From Roseomonas sp. CECT 9278 (GTDB lineage Bacteria > Pseudomonadota > Alphaproteobacteria > Acetobacterales > Acetobacteraceae): a DNA stretch of 64,000 nt. The stretch is taken from the NCBI RefSeq assembly GCF_918698155.1, contig NZ_CAKKLX010000005.1, positions 124,001 through 188,000 on the forward strand, in the 5' to 3' direction. Both the position numbers and the translations under genes were made by a program. Position 1 is the stretch's first letter, and each line of letters begins with the position of its first letter. This document shows, in pieces, positions 3,273 through 19,658 of the stretch. The notes below the pieces were generated by a model. It searched no databases. It saw nothing but the letters and a program-made list of their open reading frames with translations, and was not told the DNA's origin.

Positions 3273-3664
3273 CCGGCGCCGCGCAGATGCTGACCGTCCG
3301 GGTGCCGCTGGCGGTCCGGAAGCAGCGGGGCGGGCGGAAGCTGATGATCGCGCCGAGCAGCCCGGCGAACCGGGGCTTCTCGGCCGCGGACACCACGTTG
3401 GTCAAGGCGCTGGCCCGGGCGTTCCGGTGGCGGCGGATGCTGGAGAGCGGACGCTTCGGCACGATCGACGAGCTAGCTGCCGCCGAGAAGATCAACTCGT
3501 CCTATGTCTCGCGCCTGCTGCGGCTCACGCTGCTGGCGCCGGACATCGTCGAGGCGATCATGAACGGGCGGCTACAGGCAGGCGTCGAACTTACCTGTCT
3601 GATGGGCCCGCTACCAACTAGCTGGGAGACGCAGCAGCTCAGGCTTCGAGAGTGCGGCCCATGA
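3269..3664 (+). CDS. Small HTH protein of recombinase operon
   Basis: A 131-residue protein starting at an ATG that overlaps the recombinase stop. Residues 40-105 read as a ParB/LacI-like helix-turn-helix (FGTIDELAAAEKINSSYVSR, then LLRLTLLAPDIVEAIMNGR), a segment typical of the small gene that follows this recombinase class. In related proteins the tail is usually a Leu/Pro/Trp-rich motif; here GPLPTSWETQQLRL is recognisable but the very end (RECGP) looks altered, so the last codons may be a scar of the junction with the next module. It probably acts as a DNA-binding accessory factor. Regulation should follow the upstream operator. Confidence 0.75.
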   Translation: MTGAAQMLTVRVPLAVRKQRGGRKLMIAPSSPANRGFSAADTTLVKALARAFRWRRMLESGRFGTIDELAAAEKINSSYVSRLLRLTLLAPDIVEAIMNGRLQAGVELTCLMGPLPTSWETQQLRLRECGP

Positions 3665-3909
3665 CGCCGGCATTCTTGAATTGCTCCGCGGCCGCCGCGC
3701 CTCCCTGGCAAAGCAGTGACCCGAGCCGCCAGCGGATCGCCCGGGCTCGCCCGTTGGGGGAGCGTTCGGTCTCTGGCCCAACCTGTCAGCGCCAAACGAA
3801 GGAAATTTTGCTGGGGGGACCTGACGACTCTTTCGTGGCTGGATCGGGCATGGTACCCGTTTTCCCACAGAGATTGGTGTCCGCACCCGATCTTTCGGAC
3901 GGGAATGGG

Positions 3910-4455
3910 ATGAAGCTGGTTTCGACGCGCGAGGCGACGCGGCTTACAGGCCTCTCGACGGATCGGCTCCGCGAGTGGACGAGCCGACGTGCGATCATTC
4001 CCGCCGACGTCAGACCTAAGGGTCACGGCTCTCCTGCTCAGTTCACCTGGCAGACAATCCTCGTGATCCGCCTCGCCGCTGCGTTGCGCGCTCGGTTCCG
4101 TGTGGAGCTACACGCGCACCGCCCGCTTTTCGCGAGCCTGCGACGTGGCTTCCACGGCGTTTCCTTCATCGCCTTGTGGGATAAGCGACTGGCAATCCAC
4201 AGTAGCAGCCGCTGGCTTCTCCTCGACGCGTCGAGCGTCCCCCCCGAGCCGCAGGACGCCATCGTGCTTTGCCTGGCTCCGCACCTGGAGATTCTTTCGA
4301 CCGGCTTTGCACTCCCTCTCCCGTCTGTTGCAGACGGCCAACTCGATCTGTTCCCGGCACACGGGCTGCCTGCAAATTCGCCTGTCCCGCGGGCCGTGCC
4401 AGCGGTCCCGACCAGTCCCGCCGTCGCGCCGGGAAGGCGCCAGGCGACAGCATGA
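3910..4455 (+). CDS. MerR-like HTH protein of defence-like operon
   Basis: A 181-residue protein. The N-terminal 60 residues are a MerR-type helix-turn-helix (VSTREATRLTGLSTDRLREW, then a wing and ILVIRLAAALR). The rest has no family I recognise; the final 50 residues are Pro/Ala-rich. The start at 3910 is chosen because a purine-rich GGGAATGGG stretch lies just before it and the HTH begins there; an upstream in-frame extension to 3652 has no domain. The stop codon overlaps the methylase start (ATGA at 4452). It could regulate the operon or deliver the methylase/nuclease to DNA. Base composition is lower in G+C than the chromosome. Confidence 0.7.
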   Translation: MKLVSTREATRLTGLSTDRLREWTSRRAIIPADVRPKGHGSPAQFTWQTILVIRLAAALRARFRVELHAHRPLFASLRRGFHGVSFIALWDKRLAIHSSSRWLLLDASSVPPEPQDAIVLCLAPHLEILSTGFALPLPSVADGQLDLFPAHGLPANSPVPRAVPAVPTSPAVAPGRRQATA

Positions 4456-7400
4456 CGAGCGCCTCCTTCCGACAGGCTCTCGGCGCGACGGGCTACCTGA
4501 CGTCAAGTGGCAGGGCCGCGCCCGGGCTAACTCAAGCGGGGGACGCTGATGGCACCGCGCTTCGGTCCCTGTTCGTTGACGAGCGCGTCGGACTGAAGGC
4601 CGACGCGCTATTCCGCGCCCAGCGGACGCCGACGACGATATTCAAGGACGCGGGCTCGGAGACTCCGACCGAAGACCAGCTCCGGCGATGGCATGAAGCA
4701 GCCTGGAATATCGGCGTCGCTCCGCTGCTCTGGGTCGTGACGCCGACGGAGGTGAGACTTTACGACTGCTACGCCTCACCGCATCCCGCCGCCAGCGATA
4801 CGGCCGCGGGAGCGCCCATCGGCCGCTTCGTGCTCGGCTCCGAGGATCGCATGCGGGCACTTGACGCTGCGTGCGGGCGCCTCGCCACCGAGACCGGCGC
4901 CTTCTGGCGGAGCGAGGTAGGCGCACGCATCGACCGCCGCCATCGCGTGGACCGGGAACTTCTGGCCGAGATCAAGGCGCTTGAAGAGGCACTTGTGGCC
5001 GCGTCGACGGACAGTTCGAACAGGTCATTGCGTCCGCAGGCAGTCCAGGCCGACCGCAACTTCGCCCAGCGCCTCATCGGACGGTGCATCTTCACCTGGT
5101 ATCTGCTCGACAGAGAGATTGCGCAGCGGTTCCTTCCGCCGGCACTTCCACCGGACCTTGGGGAGATGTTCGCATCGCCCGACCGAGCGTTCGCCCTCTT
5201 CGACTGGCTGCGCGCGACCTTCAACGGCGACCTCTTCCCGATGGACGATCCAGGCGCCGAACGCCAGCAGCTTGCAGAGGCGCACCTTTCGCTAATGCGC
5301 GAGTTCGTCGCAGGTCGCAGCCTCGTTCCGGAACGGCGGGGCCAGGGGCGGCTCTTCCATTTCAGGTTCGACGCCATTCCGGTCGATCTGATCAGCTCGA
5401 TATACCAGCAGTTTGCGCGTTCTGGTGCGGCCGAGGAGGCGGCGTCTCAGGGCTTGCATTACACTCCGGTGGAATTGGTGCATCTCACTCTCGACCCAGT
5501 CTTTGAGGGGCTGCCGTCGACCGCGCGTGTCATCGATCCAACCTGCGGCTCTGGCGCCTTTCTGGTTGAGGCTTTCCGCCGTCTCGTATGGCGCGCGACC
5601 GGTGGCAAGCCGGCGACGCGGCAACTCGTGCGGCGCGTCCTGTACACCCAGCTCTTCGGCATCGACATCAATCGGTCCGCGCTCGGCATTGCTGCATTCA
5701 GCCTTTACCTAGCGGCGCTCGAACTTGATGACGAGCCGGTTGAGGACGTCCGAGACCTGAGGTTTGACCGGCTCATCGAGACCACGCTCTTCGAAGCGGA
5801 CGCCATCTCTGACGAACTTCCGACCGCTGTGTCCGCCGAACGCTTCGACGCCGTCGTCGGCAACCCGCCGTGGACGTTCGTGAGCCGCGAGGGTGGCTCC
5901 CGTAGGCGCATGACGGCCCAGCAGGACACACTCCGCCCGCGCCGCAGCCCTGATTGGCTGTTCCTTGCTGCCGCCGCTCGCCTTGCCGGTGACACCGGGC
6001 GGATTGGGATGGTGATGAAGGCCACCCCCTTCTTCTCAAAGGACAATCACGCCGTCGAGGCGAGGTCGGCGCTCCTCTCTAGGCTTGCTCCCGCCGCGCT
6101 GATCAATCTCTCGCTTCTGCGTAAGGAGGAGCTGTTCCCGGACGCCACTGGCCCAGCTCTTCTCTTCTTCGCCCGCTGCACGCTTGGACCCGCGGGCGAC
6201 CGACTGCTCGTCGGTTCGATGCCCTGGACGCCGGACTTCCGACGCACGGGCGTCTTCCACCTTAGCCCCGGTGAGATCAGGGCCCTGCCGCTGAAGCGGG
6301 TCTTGAGGACGCCTTCAATCCTTAAAGCGGTGGCATTCGGGACTGTGCGCGACGGCTGGCTCATCGAGCGCCTGGAACATGAATTCCCGACTCTCGATGA
6401 CCTCTTGCTCGATCTCGGCATCAGACCCCGCATCCACCGCGGCCAGGGATTCAAAGTCCGTGGCGCGGGTCAGACCACGACGCCCGCCAGCTACTTTGAT
6501 CTCCAGGTAGTAACGCCTGACGCATTTACGCCGTTCCGCATTGAGCAGTCGAAGCTGGGACGGTTCACCCACGAAACGCTGCACCGCATCCGCGGCCCAT
6601 TAATCTTCCGTGGGCCGCTACTGATTTGCCCGAAGGTTGGCTCCGAGGCCGGCGCCGAGAAGGGGCGCTACAGTGCAGCCGTTAGCTCTAGCGATGTGCT
6701 CTATAACCAAAGCTTCTTCGGCATCTCGTTCGCCGAGGCAGAGCACCGCAACGCTAAGGTGCTAAGCGGTGTCTTAAACGCAAGTCTGACCGCCTTCCAG
6801 TTCGCGTTCGGCGGGCCAACATGGGGGCTTGAGCGTCCGACCGTTGAGCCGCACGATCTTCTATCGCTTCGCGTGCCAGCATTGGCAGAGTGCGACGATG
6901 ATGTGCTCGACGCCGTCGTGCGAGCCGAGGCGAATGTCTCCACAAATCCTCACGACGCAGGCCTCCTGCTGGCGCTAGACGAAGCCGTCTTTGACCTATA
7001 CGGGCTGGAGCCCGATGAGCGCGTACTGGCTGGTGAGGCCGTTGCTCGCGCCCATCCGCTGGTGTTCGAGAATCGCGGCGTGCGGAGCACTCTGGTGGCT
7101 GCGCCTGCTACGAATGACGTCCGTGGCTATGCCGCGCAGGTCGCCCGAACTGTTGACGCTCACCTGCGCGCCCGCGGTCAGCGCCACCTAGAAGCGTTCA
7201 CGTACTCCCGTTCAGAAGGTTCGGGGAGTAACCTCGGTGTGCCAGGGATCACCACAGTCCGGTTCGTGATGTCCGCGGGCGCGCCCGGTGATCTACCGGT
7301 GGTCCGTGAGGGAGACCCGAGCGATCTGGATGCGCTTGCCGGCCTGCTGCGAGGCCGGCTCGAGGCGGATATGCCGCCATACCTCAACGAGCGCCGCCAA

Positions 7401-7541
7401 CTCCGCCTCTACGGCGCCGAAGACCTCTTCGTGCTGAAGCCAACGGAAGCCCGGTATTGGACCCGCACCGCCGGCCTCAACGACGCGGACGTGATCCTAG
7501 CCGATCACTGGCTTCGGAGGCGGGATGCTGCTGTCGCCTGA
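4452..7541 (+). CDS. N6-adenine DNA methylase, large (type IIG/Eco57I-like core)
   Basis: A 1029-residue predicted DNA adenine methyltransferase. Motif I (DPTCGSGAFLVEAF, Asp362) and motif IV (NPPW, Asn471) are intact, so S-adenosylmethionine binding and adenine-N6 methylation are expected. The N-terminal 340 residues are long, mixed alpha/beta and end in a helical segment typical of N6_Mtase proteins. The region after about 600 should hold target recognition. I see no clear PD-(D/E)XK motif inside it, unlike true type IIG enzymes; the nuclease appears to be the next gene. It overlaps the HTH gene by 4 bases and the nuclease gene by 17. The gene is less G+C-rich than flanking chromosome, which fits acquisition. 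A BREX- or DISARM-type methylase is an alternative, but no partner genes of those systems are seen. Confidence 0.85.
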   Translation: MTSASFRQALGATGYLTSSGRAAPGLTQAGDADGTALRSLFVDERVGLKADALFRAQRTPTTIFKDAGSETPTEDQLRRWHEAAWNIGVAPLLWVVTPTEVRLYDCYASPHPAASDTAAGAPIGRFVLGSEDRMRALDAACGRLATETGAFWRSEVGARIDRRHRVDRELLAEIKALEEALVAASTDSSNRSLRPQAVQADRNFAQRLIGRCIFTWYLLDREIAQRFLPPALPPDLGEMFASPDRAFALFDWLRATFNGDLFPMDDPGAERQQLAEAHLSLMREFVAGRSLVPERRGQGRLFHFRFDAIPVDLISSIYQQFARSGAAEEAASQGLHYTPVELVHLTLDPVFEGLPSTARVIDPTCGSGAFLVEAFRRLVWRATGGKPATRQLVRRVLYTQLFGIDINRSALGIAAFSLYLAALELDDEPVEDVRDLRFDRLIETTLFEADAISDELPTAVSAERFDAVVGNPPWTFVSREGGSRRRMTAQQDTLRPRRSPDWLFLAAAARLAGDTGRIGMVMKATPFFSKDNHAVEARSALLSRLAPAALINLSLLRKEELFPDATGPALLFFARCTLGPAGDRLLVGSMPWTPDFRRTGVFHLSPGEIRALPLKRVLRTPSILKAVAFGTVRDGWLIERLEHEFPTLDDLLLDLGIRPRIHRGQGFKVRGAGQTTTPASYFDLQVVTPDAFTPFRIEQSKLGRFTHETLHRIRGPLIFRGPLLICPKVGSEAGAEKGRYSAAVSSSDVLYNQSFFGISFAEAEHRNAKVLSGVLNASLTAFQFAFGGPTWGLERPTVEPHDLLSLRVPALAECDDDVLDAVVRAEANVSTNPHDAGLLLALDEAVFDLYGLEPDERVLAGEAVARAHPLVFENRGVRSTLVAAPATNDVRGYAAQVARTVDAHLRARGQRHLEAFTYSRSEGSGSNLGVPGITTVRFVMSAGAPGDLPVVREGDPSDLDALAGLLRGRLEADMPPYLNERRQLRLYGAEDLFVLKPTEARYWTRTAGLNDADVILADHWLRRRDAAVA

Positions 7542-8175
7542 TCGACCAGCCGGGCGCCCGCCGTTCTCGCTATACGATGACGAGGTGGCGACGGTAGTGG
7601 ACTTGGTCTGTCGGGGCGCCGCGGAGGCAAGGGGCCATTTGCAGGCTGGCATGATCGAGGTGCCTATCACCCGCCTCGTTCGAAAGGGCATCCGCAGGGT
7701 GAAGCAAGGCGCCAACCTCAGCAATGTGCAGCTTCGCGCGGGTGAGTTGGAACTGGATGACATGGCCAGCACCGATCCGACGGTCCTCGGCCGGATCGAT
7801 ATCACCCTCCAGTTCGTGCACCAATTTGGCGAGGAAGACGCGTACGTCGCCATTGAATGCAAGCGCGTGGGAGCCAGGCAGCACCAGCTAAATGCCCGCT
7901 ACGTGACCGACGGCGTGGAGCGGTTTGTCACCGGGCAGTACGCCTTGGGACATAGCGATTCGTTCATGCTCGGTTTTGTGCTCGTCTTGCCCGCCGAGGC
8001 AGCGGTCGCGTCCATCAGCGGCCGCGTCCGGTCCACCTACGGGGAGGAAGCGCAACTCATCCTCGAATCAGCTCACCCGGCGTCGCTAGCTGTGTTGAGC
8101 GGCCGACTCCTCCAGAAGGGCTCGCACGCCATGCGACTGCACCACATATTTGTCGACATGACTCCAGCCGCGTGA
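7525..8175 (+). CDS. Putative PD-(D/E)XK restriction nuclease paired with methylase
   Basis: A 216-residue protein starting inside the 3' end of the methylase gene. The middle contains RIDIT (Asp92) followed by AIECKR (Glu111, Lys113), a good match to the Asp...Glu-X-Lys catalytic triad of PD-(D/E)XK nucleases. The upstream helix (residues 10-45) could supply the first acidic residue. The remaining sequence does not match a family I can name. With the preceding methylase and HTH genes it makes a compact restriction-modification-like cassette. The start at 7525 overlaps the methylase stop by 17 bases, implying coupling. Cleavage activity is inferred from the motif only. Confidence 0.65.
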   Translation: MLLSPDRPAGRPPFSLYDDEVATVVDLVCRGAAEARGHLQAGMIEVPITRLVRKGIRRVKQGANLSNVQLRAGELELDDMASTDPTVLGRIDITLQFVHQFGEEDAYVAIECKRVGARQHQLNARYVTDGVERFVTGQYALGHSDSFMLGFVLVLPAEAAVASISGRVRSTYGEEAQLILESAHPASLAVLSGRLLQKGSHAMRLHHIFVDMTPAA

Positions 8176-8187
8176 CCTTGCCAGAAT

Positions 8188-10194
8188 TCATGGCGCCGTT
8201 CCCCATCGAATAGGCTCGACAGCGAGACCGGCGGTGGTCGCCATCTCCGCCTCCACCCAATCCGCCAATCGCCGTACGCGGCGCCCGAGATGCGCGCCCC
8301 GCATGACGAAGTGATCGCGGTCGTAGTCGGCCATGGCGTAGGCGATTGCCCATCGTAGTGTCGCCACGCTGAAAGCCTGGTCCTCGCGCTCGGTGAGAAT
8401 GGCGCGGAGGAACAGCAGGCGCCGATCCGTGGTGATGGCGCCATGGGAATGGATGCTGCGCCGCCGACGCAGCGGCGGGGCGGCCGCCTTGATTGCCTCA
8501 AGCAGGGCGCGACGCCTCGCCGTGCGGTCACGGCAGTCCGGCCTCGCGAGATCACGCGCCTCGATCAAAAGACGGCAGACCGCCTCCGGGCAGTCCGGAT
8601 CCAGCACCGCCTCAACCAAAGTCTCGATGATCAGCGACTGCATGAAGCGCCGCTTCGCGCGCGTGCCGAGGCCCGCGACATAGGCCGCGACCGGGACAAA
8701 GCGCTGCGGGGTCTCGTGCAACCCGGCCTCGAGCCTGATCGCCACCATTCGCAGGCGCTGAGGCAACGGCATTCCGCGCCCGCGCCGCTTGGGTGACAGC
8801 GCATCGCCGATGCCCTCCCGGGTGCGCGCAGGACGCCGCGGCTCGGGCACCTGCGCGCTGGCCGGATCGTGGTCCTCTTCTGGTGCTGGCGTCGCCCAGG
8901 CGAGGATCTCCTCCGCCTGGGCGACCGTCAGCCGTCCCCCATTCCGGTGGGCGATCGGCGATGCGCGCTCCAGGAATCGCCAGAGCAGACCGGGTGGCGA
9001 CGTTCCGAACCGGCGCTCCACATCCCAGGCCTCCGGCACCACGCGGGCGAGGTGCAGCAGAAGCTCTGCCCTGTTCCGCGCGATATGCGGAGGGTCGTCG
9101 CCGCGCAGGCAAATCTCGTAGGGCAGGCTGACATGGCCCTCGGCGGTTGCCTGTGGGCCGGGGTCGCGGGCGAAGATCGCGACCTCATAGCCTTCCCCGA
9201 TCAGGCGGGAGATGATCTCACCCGCCTGCCGCGGCAGCGTTCCCACCGCACGGTCATGCCGGTCCAGGACCAGCACAGTGTTGGGGCCGCGCGGGTCGTC
9301 GCGTGCCTGGCGCAGCTTGAGATATCGCAGCGCGTCCTTCGCCGCCTCGAGGCTGCGGCCAGGCGCCGGCAGCCAGCCGCGTAACAGAGGCCTCGGCCGC
9401 TCCGCCGGCTTGGCCAGCGCAGCCGGGGTGGGGGGCGCCAAGGCGGGCTCCAGCCCGGGCATGGCAATCCCGAGCCGCTTGGCCTCTGCCAGGGCGCGGG
9501 CTGTCTGGATCCGGGCCGCTTCGCCGCCGACCAGACGGTAGTCCTGCGCAACAACCTGCCAGGATGGCAACGGCAGGGCACCCGGCGGCACCCACTCGAC
9601 TTCCTTGGTCCGCTGCCAGCCGGCGCAGGGACCGGTCAGCATCACGGCGCGCCCGCCCGTGTCGGGTCCGCCGAACCGCTCCGCCATGAGCGGCTGGGCC
9701 TGGAGCAGATTCGCCACCTGATCCAGCGCGTCGGCTGGGCTGGCTGCCAAGGGTCCGGCATCCACCAGCGACAGGCGGGCGGCGATCCGCCAGTTCCCTG
9801 GCGTGGCCTCGAACGGATGGCCGTCCAGCATCTCGGCCTCGATCCGACCACCCGCGTCCAGGATCTCGGCAATGCGGCGGTTCTCGCCCCGGGGCAGGTA
9901 GCCAAGCCGATCACCCTCCGGCGTGTGGATGGCGACGGCCCAGGGATCCCGCGTATTCGCCGGTTCGCGCCGCAGCAGCAGGGCCTGCCCGGCCCGCAAC
10001 CGCGCGGCGACGCGAGGGGCGGCGTGGTACCGTGTGCCGACGACCGAGGCGTCCCCGAGGGGCAACGGTGCCCGCTTCGCGGCGGCGGCCAGAGGCGCTG
10101 CCACCATCGCTCGGGCCGGTGGCGCCGGCGCAACGGCGCCCACCCGCGCCGCCAGGGCCGAAACGGCGCTCAGAATGTCACGGCGACGGGGCAT
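8188..10194 (-). CDS. HIRAN-domain protein of unknown function
   Basis: A 668-residue protein convergent with the nuclease gene. Residues about 48-120 form a HIRAN domain (VVGTRYHAAPRVAARLRAGQ, LRREPANTRDPWAVAI, then GYLPRGENRRIAE), a module that in Rad5/HLTF-type proteins binds damaged or single-stranded DNA ends. The central part (300-370) has an alpha/beta stretch beginning NTVLVLDRHDRAVG. The C-terminal 250 residues are Arg-rich and helical, with no helicase, nuclease or ATPase motif seen. There is no signal peptide. Similar HIRAN proteins occur in islands with recombinases and restriction genes, so a DNA-repair or defence role is plausible but unproved. Confidence 0.7.
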   Translation of the reverse strand: MPRRRDILSAVSALAARVGAVAPAPPARAMVAAPLAAAAKRAPLPLGDASVVGTRYHAAPRVAARLRAGQALLLRREPANTRDPWAVAIHTPEGDRLGYLPRGENRRIAEILDAGGRIEAEMLDGHPFEATPGNWRIAARLSLVDAGPLAASPADALDQVANLLQAQPLMAERFGGPDTGGRAVMLTGPCAGWQRTKEVEWVPPGALPLPSWQVVAQDYRLVGGEAARIQTARALAEAKRLGIAMPGLEPALAPPTPAALAKPAERPRPLLRGWLPAPGRSLEAAKDALRYLKLRQARDDPRGPNTVLVLDRHDRAVGTLPRQAGEIISRLIGEGYEVAIFARDPGPQATAEGHVSLPYEICLRGDDPPHIARNRAELLLHLARVVPEAWDVERRFGTSPPGLLWRFLERASPIAHRNGGRLTVAQAEEILAWATPAPEEDHDPASAQVPEPRRPARTREGIGDALSPKRRGRGMPLPQRLRMVAIRLEAGLHETPQRFVPVAAYVAGLGTRAKRRFMQSLIIETLVEAVLDPDCPEAVCRLLIEARDLARPDCRDRTARRRALLEAIKAAAPPLRRRRSIHSHGAITTDRRLLFLRAILTEREDQAFSVATLRWAIAYAMADYDRDHFVMRGAHLGRRVRRLADWVEAEMATTAGLAVEPIRWGTAP

Positions 10195-10365
10195 GCTTGC
10201 GATGATGCAATGGGCGCGAATCAGCGGGAAGAGCCACGCCGACCGGCCTGAACTTCGCCCGGACCGACCGCGCGATGGATGACAGCGGGTTTATCCTTGG
10301 GCACAATGATCAATACTTGGACGTCTACGGCTGGCGCCGTGGCGCCGCCGGAGTCGATTGCCCAT

Positions 10366-11424
10366 ATGTCGCGTACCTCAACCCCTCCAGGCGCCGCCGG
10401 CCCTGGGCCACTGCATGCGGCGCTGCGCCAGGTCGCGGCCAGCATCGCCCGCCTGCGGGCCGATGGCGGTCAGGTATTGGAGGAAGACACCAAGCGAATT
10501 CTGATCACGCCCACAATCGAGGCGCTCGGTTGGGACCATATCGCAGAAATCCGCAATCAGTATCGGCATAACCGGCGCGACAATCCCGTAGATTACGCGC
10601 TCTTCCTCAATCGTTCGCCGGTGCTTTACGTCGAGGCCAAGCCGCTTGGCGGTTCGCTCGATGACCGGAAGTGGATCGTCCAGACGCTGAATTACGCCAA
10701 TGCGGCCGGCGTGGACTGGTGCGTCCTGACCAACGGCGCCGAGTGGCGCATCTACAAGGTCCACGCCCAGGTCGAGGCGGAGGAGAAGCGCTTCGCCACC
10801 GCGACGATCGACCAGCCCGAAGCCCTGGACGACGCCGCGCGCGTGCTTGGCCTCCTCAGCCGGGACAACATGCGGTCGCGGGCCATCGACGAGCTCTGGC
10901 AGGCTTGGCACGTCGATCGCCAGGTCCAACAGGCGTTGGAGCAAACCCTCCAGGACGATGCCTTCGCGACCCTGATCCGCAGGCGTGTCCCGCAACTCCC
11001 CCTGGGCGATATCCGGAAGTCGCTGCGCCGAGCCAACATCGCCATCAGCTACCCCGGTCTGATCGCGGATATTCAGAGCGCCCGACCCGTCCCACCGCCT
11101 GCCAGCACGCCAGCAGGAACCTCGACCAACGGCGCCGCACCCCCGGCGTCACGGCGGCGCATGCAATCCACCGACGACCTCTTCGCCCTTGGCCGGCTGC
11201 CGGCCGGGACCACCCTCACCATCCGCGGCCGCGAAGACTCCGCCGCCCGGGTGCTGGACGGGCAGAGCGTCGAGTTCAAAGGCGAACGCCTGTCCTTCAA
11301 CGATTGGGGCCAGCGTGTCACCGGCTGGACCTCGATCCGCATCTACACCATGGCCTGCCTGCCGGATGGCCGCACCCTCGACCAGCTCCGCGACAAAGCT
11401 GAAGCCGCGAGCACCACGCCATGA
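10366..11424 (+). CDS. HsdR-N-like PD-(D/E)XK protein with RAMA-like C-terminus
   Basis: A protein of about 352 residues opening the type I restriction operon. Residues 20-160 match the type I restriction enzyme R-subunit N-terminal nuclease fold, with VDYALF (Asp76) and LYVEAKP (Glu90, Lys92). After a disordered Pro/Ala linker the C-terminus reads LPAGTTLTIRGREDSAARVL, then VEFKGERLSFNDWGQRVTGW, resembling RAMA/DUF4357 domains thought to sense DNA modification. It lacks helicase motors, so it is not HsdR itself. The start at 10366 has a GGAG 12 bases upstream; starts at 10279 or 10306 are possible. It overlaps hsdM by 4 bases. It may be an extra nuclease or a modification sensor. Confidence 0.75.
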   Translation: MSRTSTPPGAAGPGPLHAALRQVAASIARLRADGGQVLEEDTKRILITPTIEALGWDHIAEIRNQYRHNRRDNPVDYALFLNRSPVLYVEAKPLGGSLDDRKWIVQTLNYANAAGVDWCVLTNGAEWRIYKVHAQVEAEEKRFATATIDQPEALDDAARVLGLLSRDNMRSRAIDELWQAWHVDRQVQQALEQTLQDDAFATLIRRRVPQLPLGDIRKSLRRANIAISYPGLIADIQSARPVPPPASTPAGTSTNGAAPPASRRRMQSTDDLFALGRLPAGTTLTIRGREDSAARVLDGQSVEFKGERLSFNDWGQRVTGWTSIRIYTMACLPDGRTLDQLRDKAEAASTTP

Positions 11425-13259
11425 GCCAATCCCAATCCCTCTCCGCCCTCATCTGGTCCGTCGCCGACCTGCTGCGCGGCGACTACAAGCCCTATGAATA
11501 CGGCAAGGTCATCCTGCCCTTCACCGTGCTGCGCCGGCTCGACTGCGTGCTGGCGCCCTCGAAAGCCGCTGTCCTCGCCGAGCAGGCCGCCCGGCAGGCG
11601 AAGGGCATCAACCCCGAGCCCTTCCTCCTGCGCCTCACCGGCGTGCCCTTCGCCAATACCTCGCCGCTCGATCTGAAGCTGCTGCTGGGCGACCAAGACA
11701 ACATCGCCATCAACCTCACCGCCTATCTGCAGGGCTTCTCGCCGGCGGTGCGCGACATCTTCGAGCGCTTCCTGTTCGCGGACCAGATCGAGCGGCTGAA
11801 GAAGGCCGGGCTGCTCTACCAGATCACCGAGAAATTCCTCGGCTTCGACCTCGGCCCCGACCGTGTCAGCAACCGCGACATGGGGCTGATGTTCGAGGAG
11901 CTGATCCGCAAATTCTCCGACTTCTCGAACGAGCAGGCGGCCGAGCAATTCACGCCGCGCGACGTCATCACCCTCATCGTCAATCTGCTGTTTATCGAGG
12001 ATAGCGACATCCTCAGCCCCGGCACCGCCGCAGTCCGCACCGTCTATGACCCCACCGCCGGCACGGGCGGCATGCTCTCGGAGGCGGAGCGGCATCTGCG
12101 CGCGCACAACTCCGCCGCCTCGCTCACGCTGTTTGGCCAGGAGCTGAATGACGAAGCCTATGCCATCTGCAAGGCGGACATGCTCATCAAGGGCCAGGAT
12201 GTCCGCAACATCCTGCCCGGCAATACGCTCTCCGCCGATGGGCACCCGACCCAGAAATTCGACTACATGCTCTCCAATCCGCCCTTCGGCGTGGAGTGGA
12301 AGAAGGTCGAGAAAGAAGTTCGGCGCGAGCATGAGCAGATGGGCCATGCCGGGCGCTTTGGGCCTGGGCTGCCGCGCATCTCGGATGGCTCGCTGCTGTT
12401 CCTGCTGCACCTGCTCTCGAAGATGCGCCCCGCGAAGGATGGCGGCAGCCGCATCGGCATCGTGCTGAACGGCTCGCCGCTGTTCACCGGCGGCGCGGGC
12501 TCGGGCGAGAGCGAAATCCGCCGCCATGTGCTGGAGAATGATCTGGTGGAGGCGATCATCGCGCTCCCCACCGACATGTTCTTCAACACCGGCATCGCCA
12601 CCTATGTCTGGGTACTGTCCAACCGCAAGCCGGAGCATCGCCGCGGCCTGGTGCAGCTGATAGACGCCTCCGCGCTGTGGCAGAAGATGCGCAAGAGCCT
12701 CGGTTCCAAGCGCCGTGAGATGGCAGAGGCGGATGTTGATGCCGTGACCCGGCTGTTCGGCGATTGCGTCGAGGCGCAGCTTGCGACCGTCACCACCGCG
12801 GACGGCCGCGTGAGCCGCGTGGTGGTGCGGGAGGGCGAAGCGCCGCCACCGACGCCGGATGGCGGCAGCGTGAAGCTGGCGCCGATGTCGCGCCTGTTCC
12901 GCACCGAGGCGTTCGGCTACCGCAGCATCACCGTGGAGCGGCCCTTGCGCGATGCGGCGGGGCAGGTGGTGCTTGGCCAGAAGGGCAAGGCCAAGGGCAA
13001 GCCGCAGCCCGACCCGGCGTTGCGCGACACCGAGAACGTGCCGCTGACGGAAGACGTGCAGACCTACTTTGCGCGGGAGGTGCTGCCGCATGCCGTGGAT
13101 GCGTGGATCGACCACGAGAAGACGCGGATCGGCTACGAAATCCCCTTCAACCGGCATTTCTACGTGTTCGAGCCGCCGCGCCCGCTGGCGGCGATCGATG
13201 CCGACCTCAAGCACGTCACCGACCGCATCCTGACCATGATCGCGGGGCTGGCCGCGTGA
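11421..13259 (+). CDS. hsdM: Type I restriction-modification methylase subunit HsdM
   Basis: A 612-residue methyltransferase subunit of a type I restriction-modification complex. The N-terminal helical domain (LSALIWSVADLLRGDYKPYE, then ILPFTVLRRLDCVL) is the HsdM_N signature. Motif I is DPTAGTGGML (Asp210) and motif IV is NPPFG (Asn286), giving adenine-N6 specificity. The segment EARLKKAG-like helices and the C-terminal region lead to the partner interface. Length is typical or slightly above (about 500-600). It overlaps the upstream nuclease gene (ATGA) and hsdS (GTGA). It should assemble with HsdS to methylate host sites and with HsdR to cut unmodified DNA. Confidence 0.95.
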   Translation: MSQSQSLSALIWSVADLLRGDYKPYEYGKVILPFTVLRRLDCVLAPSKAAVLAEQAARQAKGINPEPFLLRLTGVPFANTSPLDLKLLLGDQDNIAINLTAYLQGFSPAVRDIFERFLFADQIERLKKAGLLYQITEKFLGFDLGPDRVSNRDMGLMFEELIRKFSDFSNEQAAEQFTPRDVITLIVNLLFIEDSDILSPGTAAVRTVYDPTAGTGGMLSEAERHLRAHNSAASLTLFGQELNDEAYAICKADMLIKGQDVRNILPGNTLSADGHPTQKFDYMLSNPPFGVEWKKVEKEVRREHEQMGHAGRFGPGLPRISDGSLLFLLHLLSKMRPAKDGGSRIGIVLNGSPLFTGGAGSGESEIRRHVLENDLVEAIIALPTDMFFNTGIATYVWVLSNRKPEHRRGLVQLIDASALWQKMRKSLGSKRREMAEADVDAVTRLFGDCVEAQLATVTTADGRVSRVVVREGEAPPPTPDGGSVKLAPMSRLFRTEAFGYRSITVERPLRDAAGQVVLGQKGKAKGKPQPDPALRDTENVPLTEDVQTYFAREVLPHAVDAWIDHEKTRIGYEIPFNRHFYVFEPPRPLAAIDADLKHVTDRILTMIAGLAA

Positions 13260-14596
13260 GCTTTCCAGCTTACCCAACATATCAGGACAGCGGCATTTCC
13301 TGGATTGGCCCTGTGCCAGCCGGGTGGTCGGTCAAGCGGCTGCGGTTTCTCGCGCAGGTGCAAACAGGCATTGCGAAGGGCAAGGACGTCCAGGGCATCG
13401 AGACCATCCGCGTGCCCTACCTGCGCGTCGCCAATGTGCAGGATGGCTTCATCGACATCGACGATGTCAGCGAGATCGAGATTGCGGCCACCGACCTCGG
13501 CCGGTACCTGTTGCGCGCTGGTGACGTGCTGATGAATGAGGGCGGCGACTTCGACAAGCTGGGGCGCGGCCAGGTGTGGAACGGCGCCATCGACCCGTGC
13601 ATCCACCAGAACCACGTGTTTGCCGTCCGACCGCACGGGATCGAACCGGAGTGGCTGGCGCTGGTGACCAGCGCGGATTGCGGCCGCTTCTTCTTCATGA
13701 CGCGGGCGAAGCAGAGCACCAACCTTGCCTCGATCTCCTCGACCAACCTGCTTGAGCTGCCGGTGCCTTGCCCGCCACCCGCGGAGCGGCGCGCGATCAT
13801 GCGCTTCCTCGACCGCGAAGCCGGCAAGATTGACGCGCTGGTGGCGGAGCAGGAGCGGCTGATCGCGCTGCTGAAGCAGAAGCGGCAGGCCGTCATCTCC
13901 CAGGCCGTCACCAAGGGCCTCGACGCCAGCGTACCCATGAAGGACTCCGGGGTGGCGTGGCTGGGGCAGGTGCCGGCGCATTGGGAGGTACTGCGCCTTG
14001 GAGCGCTGTTCCGAGAAGCCATTGAGGAAGGCGAGCACGATCTTCCCGTGCTCAGCGTCTCGATCCATGACGGGGTGTCTGACCGCGAGCTTTCCGATAG
14101 CGAGATGGATCGCAAGGTCACGCGCAGTGAAGATCGAACGAAGTACAAGAAGGTCGCTGTGGGTGACCTCGTTTACAACATGATGCGTGCTTGGCAGGGC
14201 GGCTTCGGTACCGTTGCCGTCGCCGGCATGGTGAGCCCAGCCTATGTCGTGGCACGGCCCCGCGGCGACCTGCGAACGGCCTTCGTAGAGTTCGTTCTGC
14301 GGACGCCGCAGGCGATCGAGGAAATGCGCCGCTATTCAAAGGGCGTCACCGACTTCCGGCTTCGCCTCTATTGGGATGAATTCAAGCAAATCGTCCTTGC
14401 GGTGCCGCCGCTCACCGAGCAGGCGAGCATTCTGGCGGCTATCGACGACCAAGCGGCTCGCTTCGACACCCTCACCACCGAAGCCCACCGCGCCATCGCC
14501 CTCCTCCGCGAACGCCGCGCGGCCCTCATCTCCGCTGCCGTCACCGGAAAGATCGACGTGCGCGGACTGTGCCTCTCGGTGGACGAAGCCGCATGA
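13256..14596 (+). CDS. hsdS: Type I restriction-modification specificity subunit HsdS
   Basis: A 446-residue DNA-recognition subunit with the usual two target-recognition domains, each followed by a conserved spacer helix. The first repeat runs from ISWIGPVPAGW to PPPAERRAIMRFLDREAGKI and a long helix (ALVAEQERLIALLKQKR). The second runs from VAWLGQVPAHW to PPLTEQASILAAIDDQAARF and a matching helix ending in AVTGKIDVRG. The start is a GTG inside the hsdM stop (GTGA), immediately before SFPAYPTYQDSG. It overlaps the next gene by 4 bases. The recognised sequence cannot be read from the protein. Confidence 0.95.
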   Translation: MSFPAYPTYQDSGISWIGPVPAGWSVKRLRFLAQVQTGIAKGKDVQGIETIRVPYLRVANVQDGFIDIDDVSEIEIAATDLGRYLLRAGDVLMNEGGDFDKLGRGQVWNGAIDPCIHQNHVFAVRPHGIEPEWLALVTSADCGRFFFMTRAKQSTNLASISSTNLLELPVPCPPPAERRAIMRFLDREAGKIDALVAEQERLIALLKQKRQAVISQAVTKGLDASVPMKDSGVAWLGQVPAHWEVLRLGALFREAIEEGEHDLPVLSVSIHDGVSDRELSDSEMDRKVTRSEDRTKYKKVAVGDLVYNMMRAWQGGFGTVAVAGMVSPAYVVARPRGDLRTAFVEFVLRTPQAIEEMRRYSKGVTDFRLRLYWDEFKQIVLAVPPLTEQASILAAIDDQAARFDTLTTEAHRAIALLRERRAALISAAVTGKIDVRGLCLSVDEAA

Positions 14597-15285
14597 GCGT
14601 TTCAATGCGCAGCATCCTGGAGCAGATCGGCTTTGCCGAAGACTGGAACACGATCACCGATCAGGCGCCGGGCTATCGGTTCAACGCCGGCAATCTCCGC
14701 ATCCAGGCAACGCAGGTCACGAGCGAGTATCTCCGCCCTGAATTCCTGATCACGGGTATCGAGGATCAACGGCCCCGCGCCTTGGGCTCGATCCAGCTGT
14801 CGATGCCGATCGCTGTCGAGTCATTCGAACAGGGTGTCGCCTGGATTGCCTACGCCGTCAGCGCACGATTCCAGCCCAGCAAGCCAATCGCGTGGCTCGA
14901 ACAAGGCCGTCTCTGGAAGCATCATCTTCCGTGGGAGCAGAAGCAGGCGGCCTATCGCGCCCGGCCCCACTGCACTGTCGCGCGGGATTGGTTCCGGATG
15001 CCCGCCAAGACCCTCGTGGCGCTATCGCTCTCGGCGCCAGAGCAGGGGGCTGCGACCTTCACGTTCGATGGCAACATCCTGACCATTCTCGCGGGCGACG
15101 CACGGCTTCCCATGCCAGCCACGGGCACCGCCTGGACCCGCGACTACTCCGTGCGGCTCGCCAGCTTCAAGGACTTTCCAAAGCGCCTGATGCGGGCAGA
15201 TCTCGACATTGGCGTTTGGGAAGGAAAGCTGAACGTGGATCGGGCGAGATTCGATCTTTTGGAATCCCCGGAACCAAAGCCTTGA
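14593..15285 (+). CDS. Unknown protein embedded in type I restriction operon
   Basis: A 230-residue protein starting in the hsdS stop codon (ATGA), so it is part of the hsd operon. I do not recognise a family. It has no signal peptide, transmembrane segment or obvious nuclease triad. It has mixed alpha/beta character with many Trp residues (VAWIAYAVSARFQPSKPIAW, then GRLWKHHLPWEQKQAAY). Immediately after it lies a leftover fragment of an hsdR 5' end, which suggests it once directly preceded an hsdR gene. It could be an anti-restriction, assembly or accessory factor of this R-M subtype; this is inference from position. Confidence 0.7.
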   Translation: MSVSMRSILEQIGFAEDWNTITDQAPGYRFNAGNLRIQATQVTSEYLRPEFLITGIEDQRPRALGSIQLSMPIAVESFEQGVAWIAYAVSARFQPSKPIAWLEQGRLWKHHLPWEQKQAAYRARPHCTVARDWFRMPAKTLVALSLSAPEQGAATFTFDGNILTILAGDARLPMPATGTAWTRDYSVRLASFKDFPKRLMRADLDIGVWEGKLNVDRARFDLLESPEPKP

Positions 15286-15455
15286 GTTTGCACCGCGAGT
15301 CCCGGCTGGAAGACGCCATTTGCGCCCAGATCGCCGGCTATGGTTGGCTCTTCGAGCCTGACGCTGCCACCGGCCACGACCGCGCCGGCGGACTATGCGG
15401 AGGCCCCCGCATCATGAGCAGACCAACGCGGGGGTGCAGCTATGCCGATCTATGA
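15282..15455 (+). pseudogene. Truncated copy of the hsdR 5' end
   Basis: Starting at a TTG that overlaps the stop of the preceding gene, the frame reads LHRESRLEDAICAQIAGYGW followed by LFEPDAATGHDRAGGL. This parallels residues 4-38 of the intact HsdR encoded at 16536 (LHREARLEDAICAHLAAHGW, LYEPDAAARHDRARGL). Similarity covers roughly 105 bp and then stops abruptly; the frame ends at 15455, just inside the next gene. It is a relic of an hsdR whose body was replaced when the 15442-16539 gene and current hsdR arrived, or of a duplication. The two copies differ at several residues, so it is not recent or not a self-copy. Confidence 0.8.
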
Positions 15456-16539
15456 AGCCCGGCCTGAGGGCCTGCACCCCATCACCGCCACCAGCTTCGA
15501 GGCCGAAGGTTGGAAGGAACGCGGCGACATACAGCGCCTGCTGAAGGACCGCATCGCCACCTTGGAAGACGGCCTGTTGGTGCTGACCGATGAGTTCAGC
15601 GGCTGGTCCGACAGCGCAAGGCGGATCGATCTTCTTTGCCTCGACCGCGAGGCGAACCTGGTGGTCGTCGAGCTGAAGCGCGACGAGGATGGCGGCCACA
15701 TGGAGCTGCAGGCGCTGCGCTATGCCGCCATGGTCTCCGCGATGACCTTCGACCAGGCGGTCGAGACGCTGGCCCGCAGCCGCAATAAGGGTACCCCGGA
15801 TACGGATGCCGCCCGCACGGATATCCTCACCCATCTCGGCTGGACCGAGCCGGACGAGGACAGCTTCGCCGCCGAGACGCGCATCATCCTGGCCGCAGCC
15901 GATTTCGGGAAGGAATTGACCACCTGCGTGCTCTGGCTGCGCGATCGAGGCATCGACATCGGCTGTGTGCGCCTGAAGCCCTATCGCCTGGATGACGGCC
16001 GACTGCTGGTGGATATCCAGCCGCTGATCCCGCTTCCCGAAGCGGCCGAGTTTCAGACCCAGATCGGCGTCAAGCAGGCTGCCGGCCGTAAGGAGCGGGC
16101 GGAGCGGCATGAGCTGCGGTACCGCTTCTGGGCGGGGCTGCTGGATGCGGCGCGGCTGCGCACCACGCTGCACGCCAACCGTTCGCCGCATGATGGCAGC
16201 TGGATCGCCGGTGGCGTCGGTCGCAAGGGGTTTAGCCTCAACTACGTCATTCGGCAGCAGGATAGTCAGGTCGAGTTGAAGATCGACAGCGACGTTCCTG
16301 AGGGTGCGGCCACCTTCGCTGCCCTCAAGGCAGAGAGTGCAGCGGTGGAGCAGGCCTTTGGCGAACCCCTGGAATGGGAAGAGCCGCCGGCGATCGGCGG
16401 CTGGCGCATCTGCCAGAGGATCGAGGGGGGCTATCGGAACCCTGAGGCCGACTTGCCGGCGATCCAGGAACGCATGATCAAGGCGATGATCCGCCTGGAC
16501 GCGGCGCTACGCCCGCGGCTTGGCAAGGGCAAGCCATGA
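15442..16539 (+). CDS. DUF4268-type PD-(D/E)XK nuclease-like protein
   Basis: A 365-residue protein. The N-terminal domain contains RRIDLLCL (Asp63) and VVVELKRD (Glu77, Lys79), the core of an archaeal NucS/DUF91-like PD-(D/E)XK fold, followed by helices (ELQALRYAAMVS). The C-terminal 150 residues resemble DUF4268, which includes a RYRFWAGLLD motif and a final Tyr/Arg-rich strand (YRNPEADLPAIQERMIKAM). It sits between the hsdR fragment and the intact hsdR, overlapping the latter by 4 bases (ATGA at 16536). DUF4268 proteins are common in restriction islands. It may be an accessory nuclease or a stand-alone defence protein inserted in the operon. Confidence 0.8.
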   Translation: MPIYEARPEGLHPITATSFEAEGWKERGDIQRLLKDRIATLEDGLLVLTDEFSGWSDSARRIDLLCLDREANLVVVELKRDEDGGHMELQALRYAAMVSAMTFDQAVETLARSRNKGTPDTDAARTDILTHLGWTEPDEDSFAAETRIILAAADFGKELTTCVLWLRDRGIDIGCVRLKPYRLDDGRLLVDIQPLIPLPEAAEFQTQIGVKQAAGRKERAERHELRYRFWAGLLDAARLRTTLHANRSPHDGSWIAGGVGRKGFSLNYVIRQQDSQVELKIDSDVPEGAATFAALKAESAAVEQAFGEPLEWEEPPAIGGWRICQRIEGGYRNPEADLPAIQERMIKAMIRLDAALRPRLGKGKP

Positions 16540-19500
16540 CCGGCCTGCACCGCGAAGCCCGGCTGGAAGACGCTATCTGCGCCCATCTCGCCGCCCATGG
16601 CTGGCTCTACGAGCCTGACGCCGCCGCGCGCCACGACCGCGCCCGTGGCCTGTTCCTGGAAGACCTCGCCGCCTGGGTTCAGGCCACCCAGCCCGAGGCC
16701 TGGGAGGCTTTGACCAAGACGCATGGCGCCACGGCTGCCCTGGCGCTGGCCGACCGGCTGCGCGCCACGCTCGACCGGCAAGGCGCGCTGGAGGTGCTTC
16801 GCCAGGGGCTCGACATGGTCGGGCTGCGCCGGCCGATCGCGCTGGTGCAGTTCCGCCCGGCGCTGGCGATGAACCCGGCGCTGGCCGAACGCTACGCCGC
16901 CAATCGGCTGCGCGTGGTCCGGCAGGTACGGTATTCGGGCGCGCATGAGAACAGCCTCGACCTCGTGCTGTTCCTGAACGGTATTCCCGTCGCCACCGCC
17001 GAGCTGAAATCGGACTATACCCAATCCGTCCGCGATGCGGTGGACCAGTACCGCTACGATCGCCCGCCGCGCCTGCCCGGCCGCAACGCGCCGGAGCCCA
17101 TCCTGGCCTTCCCCGGCGGCGCGCTGGTGCATTTCGCGGTCAGCAACAGCGAGGTGCGGATGTGCACGCGCCTCGGTGGCGCCGACAGCCGCTTCCTGCC
17201 CTTCAACCAGGGCCATGATTTCGGCGCCGGCAATCCGAACAACCCGAATGGCACGGACACCGCCTATCTGTGGGACCAGGTATGGCAGCGGGATTCCTGG
17301 CTGGAGATCCTCGGCCGTTACCTGGTGCCGGTGAAGGATGGCAAGCAGCGCCTGACCGGCTGGATCTTCCCGAGATTCCACCAGCTCGACGCCACGCGGC
17401 GGCTCGTGGCGCAGGTGCTGACGGATGGCCCTGGCGGGCGCTACCTGATCGAGCACTCGGCAGGGTCGGGCAAGACGAACTCCATCGCCTGGACGGCGCA
17501 TTTCCTGGCCGATCTGCACGATGCCGAAAACCGAAAGGTGTTCGACACGGTGCTGGTGGTGTCGGATCGCACGGTGCTGGACCGGCAGTTGCGCGAGGCC
17601 CTGGAGGGGTTCGAGCGGACGCAAGGCGTGGTCGCCACCATCACCGGCGATGGCGGCAGCAAGAGCCAGGAGCTGGCGGAGGCGCTGGCAGCGGGGAAGA
17701 AGATCGTGGTCTGCACCATCCAGACCTTCCCCTTCGCCATCGAGCAGGTGCGCGCCCTGGCCCGCATGCAGGGCAAGCGCTTCTGCGTGATCGCGGATGA
17801 GGCGCATTCCTCGCAGACCGGCCAGGCCGCCCAGAAGCTCAAGCAGACATTGACGGCGGAGGAGGCGGCGGCGCTGGAGGATGGCGGCGAGTTCGACCTT
17901 GAGGACCTCCTGGCCGCCGAGATGAAGGGCCGCGCGGCGCAGGATGCCGCGATCAGCTACGTCGCCTTCACCGCGACGCCGAAGGCCAAGACGCTGGAAC
18001 TGTTCGGCCGGCGGCCGGACCCGTTGCGGCCGGCGGCGCAGGACAATCGGCCCGCAGCCTTCCACACCTATTCCATGCGCCAAGCGATCGAGGAGGAATT
18101 CATCCTCGATGTGCTGCGCAACTACACCGCCTATCGCATGGCCTTCCGCCTGACCCATGCCGGGCGGGAGATGGACGAGACGGAGGTGGATGCCAGCGAG
18201 GCGAAGAAGGGCATCATGGGATGGGTGCGGCTGCACCCGCACAACATCGCCGCCCGCGTGCAGATCGTGGTGGAGCATTTCCGGCAGAACGTGGCGCACC
18301 TGCTGGCCGGCCGCGCGAAGGCCATGGTTGTGACGGCCAGCCGGCGCGAGGCGGTGCGCTGGATGCGGGCGATGGAGGCCTATATCCGCCAGCGCCGCTA
18401 CAATCTCGGCGTGCTGGTGGCCTTCTCGGGCGAGGTGAACGATCCGGAGAGCGGCCCCGAGCCCTTCACCGAGGCCAACATGAACCCTGGGCTGCGCGGG
18501 CGCGACATGCGCGAGGCGTTTGCCACCGCAGAGTTCAGCCTGCTGATCGTGGCGAACAAGTTCCAGACCGGCTTCGACCAGCCGCTGCTCTGCGCGATGT
18601 ATGTGGACCGCCGGCTCGGCGGCATCCAGGCGGTACAGACTCTCTCGCGCCTGAACCGGGCGCATCCGGGGAAGGACACGACCTATGTCGTGGACTTCGT
18701 GAATGAGCCGGAGGAGGTGCTGGGCGCTTTCCGCCAGTACCACACCACCGCGCAGCTCGCTGATGTGAGCGACCCGAATGTGGTGCTGGACCTGCGCAGC
18801 AAGCTGGATGCGCTGGGGTTCTATGACCGCTTCGAGGTTGAGCGGGTGGCCAAGGTCGCGATGACCCCGGGCGCGACGCCGGGCGATCTCGATGCGGCGC
18901 TGGGCCAGGTGAGCAGTCGGTTGCTGACCCGCTTCAAGCACGCGCAGCAGGCCGTCCGCGGCGGCACCGATGGCTCCAAGGCGAGCGACGCGGCGAAGGA
19001 TGAGATGGAGGCGCTGCTGCTCTTCAAGCGCGACCTCGGCAGCTACGTGCGGGCCTATGAGTTCCTCGGGCAAATGTTCGACTACGGGAACACCGACTTC
19101 GAGAAGCTCTATCTGTTCGCCCGGCTGCTGCTGCCCCTGCTTGACTATGGGCGCGAGCGTGAGGGGATCGATCTTTCAGCGCTGCGCCTGACGCATCACA
19201 AGCTGCGCGACCTGGGGCAGCAGAAGCTGAACCTGGCGGGCGGGGAGCCGGCAGAGGGGCTGAAGCCGGTGACGGAGGTGGGCTCCGGGGAGATCCAGGA
19301 CCGGCAGAAGCAGCTTCTGGCCCAGATCATCCAGGCGCTGAATGACCTGTTCGAGGGGGAGCTCACGGACGGGGACCGGGTCGCCTTCGCGGAAAGCGTC
19401 CGGACCAAGCTGATGGAGAGCGAGACGCTGCGGGCCCAAGCCGCGGCGAACACGCGGGAGCAGTTCGTGAATTCGCCGAATCTGCGGGAGGAGCTGCTGA

Positions 19501-19658
19501 ACGCCATCATTTCGACAATGGAGGCGCATGGCAGCATGAGCCGGCAGGCGCTGAACTCGGAAGCGATTCAGGCCGGCCTGTTGTCGGTGCTGCTGGGGCC
19601 GGGCGCACTGTGGGAACGCTTGCGGCGTGGGGACGAGGCGCCACCTGCGCCGCCATGA
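16536..19658 (+). CDS. hsdR: Type I restriction enzyme subunit R
   Basis: The 1040-residue motor and nuclease subunit. The N-terminal nuclease domain has LDLVLF (Asp142) and TAELKSD (Glu156, Lys158). The helicase part follows: Walker A AGSGKT near 309-314, a DEAH box at 421-424, FTATPKAKTLELFG as motif III, and NKFQTGFDQP plus LSRLNRAHPGKD as later motor motifs. The C-terminal helical region (about 800-1000) binds the methylase core. Length agrees with the family. It is the last gene of the operon; a terminator-like hairpin follows at 19751. The gene looks intact and should be active with HsdM and HsdS. Confidence 0.96.
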   Translation: MTGLHREARLEDAICAHLAAHGWLYEPDAAARHDRARGLFLEDLAAWVQATQPEAWEALTKTHGATAALALADRLRATLDRQGALEVLRQGLDMVGLRRPIALVQFRPALAMNPALAERYAANRLRVVRQVRYSGAHENSLDLVLFLNGIPVATAELKSDYTQSVRDAVDQYRYDRPPRLPGRNAPEPILAFPGGALVHFAVSNSEVRMCTRLGGADSRFLPFNQGHDFGAGNPNNPNGTDTAYLWDQVWQRDSWLEILGRYLVPVKDGKQRLTGWIFPRFHQLDATRRLVAQVLTDGPGGRYLIEHSAGSGKTNSIAWTAHFLADLHDAENRKVFDTVLVVSDRTVLDRQLREALEGFERTQGVVATITGDGGSKSQELAEALAAGKKIVVCTIQTFPFAIEQVRALARMQGKRFCVIADEAHSSQTGQAAQKLKQTLTAEEAAALEDGGEFDLEDLLAAEMKGRAAQDAAISYVAFTATPKAKTLELFGRRPDPLRPAAQDNRPAAFHTYSMRQAIEEEFILDVLRNYTAYRMAFRLTHAGREMDETEVDASEAKKGIMGWVRLHPHNIAARVQIVVEHFRQNVAHLLAGRAKAMVVTASRREAVRWMRAMEAYIRQRRYNLGVLVAFSGEVNDPESGPEPFTEANMNPGLRGRDMREAFATAEFSLLIVANKFQTGFDQPLLCAMYVDRRLGGIQAVQTLSRLNRAHPGKDTTYVVDFVNEPEEVLGAFRQYHTTAQLADVSDPNVVLDLRSKLDALGFYDRFEVERVAKVAMTPGATPGDLDAALGQVSSRLLTRFKHAQQAVRGGTDGSKASDAAKDEMEALLLFKRDLGSYVRAYEFLGQMFDYGNTDFEKLYLFARLLLPLLDYGREREGIDLSALRLTHHKLRDLGQQKLNLAGGEPAEGLKPVTEVGSGEIQDRQKQLLAQIIQALNDLFEGELTDGDRVAFAESVRTKLMESETLRAQAAANTREQFVNSPNLREELLNAIISTMEAHGSMSRQALNSEAIQAGLLSVLLGPGALWERLRRGDEAPPAPP

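Follow-up and report, generated by a model that had tools for sequence, protein, structure and literature searches.

A probable type II-like restriction-modification operon with a MerR-type controller and a predicted clamp-binding peptide in Roseomonas

Restriction-modification (R-M) systems such as BseCI and TaqI consist of a single-chain gamma-class N6-adenine methylase paired with a separate nuclease, and the classic controller (C) proteins of R-M systems are small XRE-type proteins. An operon comparable to these is found in Roseomonas sp. CECT 9278, in a 64,000-nucleotide stretch of DNA (contig NZ_CAKKLX010000005.1, positions 124,001–188,000; termed here the window). Three open reading frames (ORFs) in the ORF list of the window, all on the + strand and each overlapping the next, encode a MerR-like helix-turn-helix (HTH) protein of 181 amino acids (aa) (positions 3910–4455; Pfam/profile matches), an N6-adenine DNA methylase of 1029 aa (4452–7541; Pfam, model and structure comparison) and a PD-(D/E)XK nuclease of 216 aa (7525–8175; alignment and model). 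A first-pass annotation had taken the three genes to be one operon and this is confirmed. The operon probably represents a type II-like R-M system whose MerR-type controller is linked to replication by way of the DNA polymerase beta clamp.

The operon resembles type II R-M systems in that methylase and nuclease are separate and there is no ATPase subunit (by sequence and fold), and in that the methylase has its own target-recognition domain (by fold only). It differs from the BseCI/TaqI type in that the nuclease belongs to one conserved family which follows the methylase, and the methylase has almost double the length of M.BseCI, its N- and C-terminal regions being little covered by matches. 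Type IIG/IIL enzymes (MmeI, BpuSI, DrdV) have nuclease and methylase in one chain; here the nuclease is a separate ORF in the window and in its relatives, and the distinction from type IIG drawn in the first-pass annotation is upheld. A methylase with a separate nuclease and a controller is a known kind of system, so the operon is not categorically new. The distinct restriction subtype with a dedicated HTH partner that had been proposed for it stands as a recurring family that contains the HTH gene, and not as a new kind.

Occurrence of the three genes in other genomes

A nuclease alignment of 35 rows was scanned against the named genome collection and yielded 22 loci (loci and genomes are referred to below by L and G numbers). 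The methylase lies immediately upstream of the nuclease in all 22; in L009 and L012 the contig begins inside it. The HTH gene is present in 19; of the other three, L009 and L012 are on contigs that stop short of it and L015 has only a remnant. The survey bears out the co-occurrence of the three genes, and the operon is a real, recurring unit. In L015 (positions 6842–6937) the HTH gene is cut to about 32 codons by an internal deletion, and methylase and nuclease are matched at full length; this locus is a natural test of the need for the HTH protein.

Among 289 genomes of the class, the nuclease is found in 7 and the methylase (E ≤ 1e-30) in 6, all of these among the 7. The seventh (G095) shows a C-terminal stretch of the methylase directly before the nuclease (60 residues, 47%, E = 9e-8). 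In 398 genomes of the phylum the nuclease is found in 7, each time with the methylase adjoining (the window, G028 and five others, the five being absent from the profile used to find the adjoining methylase); one of the phylum matches, G461, has a stop inside the matched nuclease stretch. The methylase–nuclease order is retained in distant relatives at 23%–27% identity of the methylase and 15%–27% of the nuclease. Relatives are also found on plasmids, where the order small ORF, methylase and ORF of ~220–250 aa recurs with the methylase at 23%–27% identity. The profile scores of L037–L039, L041 and L043–L046 are not independent, as these loci were in the profiles. No phage carriage of operon relatives was confirmed in viral_contigs (156 pattern stretches), and there was no relative among 50,697 phage records at E ≤ 0.01.

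The HTH gene of the window is the sole match of its kind in its genome. Eight of the 289 class genomes have an HTH match, which is ahead of a methylase in four (G000, G028, G277 and G228). The other four (G182, G011, G143 and G141) are weak, three of them confined to the first 80 profile positions, and no methylase match was found near them in the 2–3.4 kb examined. On these eight matches, the idea that the HTH gene is a general MerR gene with other partners was rejected.

The HTH protein, its operator and its clamp-type motif

Of 22 upstream regions (the 200 bp preceding the start of the HTH gene), 18 share a 9-mer (one mismatch); five shuffles reach 7 at most. The 9-mer is part of a 23-bp dyad with the consensus AGATCGGGTAT-N-ATACCCGATCT. 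Training sites were picked by their match to this consensus, read off the upstream regions, prior to a leave-one-out scan of 27 loci; L011 (its HTH is identical to that of L010), L009 and L012 (contig edge) were left aside and seven distant HTHs are unscored. In each of the 27, the site ranked first across the whole locus and both strands by a matrix from the other 26 loci lies 26–71 bp ahead of the HTH start. The second-best site is 27–32 bp from the first in 15 of the 27, the window included.

In the window, operator copy 1 (GGATCGGGCATGGTACCCGTTTT, positions 3841–3863, + strand), the proposed binding site of the HTH protein, scores 26.7 bits with the leave-one-out matrix, the best of all positions in the 64 kb, and copy 2 (AGATTGGTGTCCGCACCCGATCT, positions 3871–3893, + strand; 9.8 bits) is second. 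A degenerate pattern made from the two copies has exact matches only at these two places in the 5.44-Mb genome; with two mismatches, two matches in the window are not unusual (15 of 100 shuffles have at least as many). Counting complementary pairs does not by itself clearly separate dyads from random stretches. A sigma-70 scan of positions 3600–8400 showed no promoter-like site.

The 27 loci include L059 and L069–L073, whose HTHs are 41%–56% identical to that of the window. The methylases of L059 and L069–L072 are only 26%–28% identical to the window methylase, and that of L073 is a weak profile match only. Thus the operator follows the HTH and not the methylase, as predicted for an autoregulator. 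In L063 (HTH 39% identical) the dyad is perfect, with 11 of 11 pairs. Within the close family the operator of L015 scores lowest, with 12.6 bits against 17.6 for the next; the values for L072 and L073, whose HTHs are distant, are 12.2 and 9.5 bits.

A separate observation concerns L055, where a perfect 22-bp palindrome, AATCCGGGGTTAACCCCGGATT, is found ~45 bp before the start of a distant HTH at position 5094, possibly its own operator.

The HTH protein, which is MerR-like and 148–181 aa long in 26 loci, is most likely a controller (autoregulator). It would bind the dyad ahead of its own start codon and in this way control expression of the overlapping genes, with repression the more likely sign of regulation. 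A conserved operator before its own gene (27 of 27 loci; binding predicted) is a likeness to C proteins. It differs from the classic C proteins in being MerR-like and in having a clamp-type motif. Since it is not XRE-type, it is said here to work like a C protein rather than to be a member.

The motif, G-Q-[LF]-x-L-F-P, is located between the folded part of the HTH protein and a variable tail. In the window it reads QLDLF (residues 144–148; codons at 4339–4353, + strand). Neither its Q nor its final F changes among the 120 best of 397 HTH relatives, and most flanking columns vary. The pattern Q[LFMI]x[LFM]F is present in 117 of these 120 vs 1.1% of shuffles, the rest being QPDLF (2) and QYQLF (1). 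The same strict pattern is found in none of 120 nucleases (best of 311 relatives), 120 methylases (best of 1497) and 75 flanking proteins. It is also found in 25 of 26 HTHs read from the loci; the exception is L020, in which one base of the motif is undetermined. HTHs that accompany other methylase subfamilies have it as well (QFDLF in L069 and L070, QLPLF in L071 and L073, QLTLF in L072, QLSLF in L063 and QLDLF in L059). A looser form, QxxLx[FL], is near the C-terminus in six of seven distant MerR-like HTHs (L039 has none) and in the last 60 residues of 3 of 75 control proteins.

According to passages of a 2024 review (PMC11139829), the consensus of clamp-binding motifs is QL(S/D)LF, the general pentamer is Q-phi-x-[L/M]-[F/L], and among peptides QLDLF bound most strongly in several studies. 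The HTH peptide fits this pentamer, and a beta clamp gene is present in the genome of the window. The QLDLF peptide may be exposed and dock on the beta clamp. Replication would then be linked to control of the system, or to delivery of the methylase.

The HTH protein could instead be a working subunit, i.e. a targeting or clamp adaptor that brings methylase and nuclease to DNA, with autoregulation secondary. It is a dedicated partner with a strongly conserved clamp-type motif and a basic RRRSA-like tail, and the HTH, methylase and nuclease distances correlate (r = 0.72–0.91, 18 loci), as shared descent alone would also cause. This is judged unlikely, however. In L015 the HTH is mostly deleted with both enzymes kept and so is dispensable there; in several distant operons it is replaced by small DNA-binding proteins that are RHH-like (L038, L041, L058), XRE-like (L044, L045) or of another HTH type (L057), family names that rest on sequence reading (in L037 none was recognised); and the same HTH type stands ahead of the divergent methylases noted above. 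The first-pass annotation had suggested target recognition or timing as the HTH role. Targeting is disfavored by the deletion and the replacements, and the control role is retained on account of the conserved operator.

An extension of the controller reading is tentative: the controller may act as a replication sensor, being shared between operators and beta clamps. A surge of loaded clamps, as in phage or plasmid replication, would free the promoter and turn the system on. Alternatively, the HTH protein would bring the methylase to the replication fork, giving daughter strands their mark ahead of any cutting.

The methylase and the nuclease

The methylase model aligns through the target-recognition domain of CamA, M.BseCI and MmeI (structure comparison, by fold only), with CamA as the best structural match; in the window methylase this domain is at residues ~640–856. 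As the model covers both catalytic and target-recognition domains, the lack of a specificity subunit is expected. This lack had been taken as distinctive; the absence is real, and the layout is an ordinary type II one. Almost no structural match extends into the C-terminal region (residues 870–1029; window 7059–7538). This region diverges most closely in step with the nuclease and is therefore a candidate docking domain. Relative to type IIG/IIL enzymes, the N-terminus keeps D51 and K65, with mostly I63 where an acid is expected (alignment reading only). A degenerate nuclease in this region was considered; comparing it with the HSDR_N-like protein encoded at 10279 yielded nothing. The protein has the fold and motifs of its class and would recognise a DNA site via its own target-recognition domain and mark an adenine there.

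Sixteen aligned members of the nuclease family all have E45, D92, E111 and K113, the presumed catalytic residues; in a wider set (n = 12), T49, Y126, G130, R133, F134, Y139, M148 and G150 likewise show little or no variation. The AlphaFold2 model has a predicted local distance difference test score (pLDDT) of 83 and a predicted template modelling score of 0.83. A Foldseek search with it gave nothing significant. The VIA-align list is rich in PD-(D/E)XK proteins: BamHI (Z = 7.5), McrBC (6.5; chain M, taken to be McrC), SwaI (5.9), PaqCI (5.1), HamA (4.7), EcoRI (4.7), EcoRV (4.4) and NucC (4.2). The protein thus shows the fold together with the D...(D/E)xK residues that define the PD-(D/E)XK superfamily. 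It would cut DNA that lacks the mark, acting by itself or while docked to the methylase.

A compact exclusion system of the PglX/BREX or MADS type, where self DNA is marked by methylation and the nuclease does not cut site-specifically, is a still less likely reading. The operon is similar to MADS in that an HTH gene adjoins the methylase, and there is weak mad1 and partial mad2 similarity. On the other side, PglZ, BrxC, a kinase and an ATPase are absent from the operon, and the nuclease has no mad match. PADLOC showed no other BREX gene in the operon and 10 nearby genes; the one MADS match among these neighbors was a partial one, of HsdM to mad2. None of 56 nuclease members matches a BREX or MADS model, the PADLOC hits among them being QatB in one (E = 0.008) and an effector in one (E = 0.049). 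The claim that the operon matches no named system holds as regards BREX and MADS (10 nearby genes) and fails as regards the general type II layout, which is known.

Surroundings, counter-evidence and meaning of the family

Upstream of the operon are genes for a LexA-like protein (a name that rests on an S24-type regulator match below cut-off), a DUF2924 protein and a serine recombinase. The recombinase/DUF2924 operon was considered as part of the system and rejected, as it is absent beside relatives. Downstream is a convergent gene for a HIRAN-domain protein (8188–10194, minus strand, 668 aa) with a weak match to the PADLOC candidate PDC-M03B in the HIRAN part only. A type I R-M locus follows (10279–19655), with an HSDR_N-only protein (10279–11421), HsdM, HsdS, a DUF4268 protein (15442–16536; match to PADLOC candidate PDC-S11) and HsdR (16536–19655). 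The extra HSDR_N-only protein ahead of HsdM is unusual-looking.

The flanks of the 22 operons contain 146 ORFs of at least 150 aa within 5 kb, of which 75, mostly the nearest ones, were scanned. These include 7 phage integrases, 1 TIR protein and 1 PRTase-CE protein; DISARM-type and other defence matches are among the first 25 of 113 families.

Least likely is a role mainly in epigenetic regulation of the host, or as an addiction module carried by mobile DNA, rather than against phage: the top structural match CamA is an orphan methylase, the target-recognition block is not variable, and relatives occur on plasmids and beside the integrases just mentioned, but a nuclease with the expected residues accompanies the methylase in every close locus seen, and the neighbors include type I R-M in the window and DISARM, TIR and SIR2-type genes elsewhere.

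Several observations weigh against the type II-like R-M reading with a clamp-coupled controller. Every nuclease Z-score is below 8, and Rep15, an unrelated protein, reaches 7.0 and takes 3 of the top 12 rows; the fold claim therefore rests on fold and residues jointly. The methylase model has a pLDDT of 68, i.e. moderate confidence only. Many R-M systems in an arms race have a hypervariable target-recognition block, and none is seen here (pairwise identity 0.51–0.67 and at most 3% gaps at residues 651–775). The motif counts are not independent events because the proteins are homologues, and the clamp-type motif is absent from L039 and from the distant operons with other DNA-binding proteins. 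In the L073 plasmid operon the third gene is no recognisable nuclease relative.

No recognised description of the operon, or of a clamp motif in an R-M controller, was found in a literature search that had most subscription papers and all bioRxiv preprints outside its reach. As far as searches of this incomplete literature show, the family itself, the MerR-type controller with a conserved operator and its predicted clamp-binding peptide appear to be new.

The nuclease family fills an annotation gap: 311 database proteins match it, and no Pfam, NCBIfam or PADLOC model is significant (noise level at most). It is a long-standing question how R-M systems ensure that methylation precedes cutting, both on arrival in a new host and in each round of replication. 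With a controller that has a defined operator and a predicted clamp-binding peptide, a direct link to replication becomes testable.
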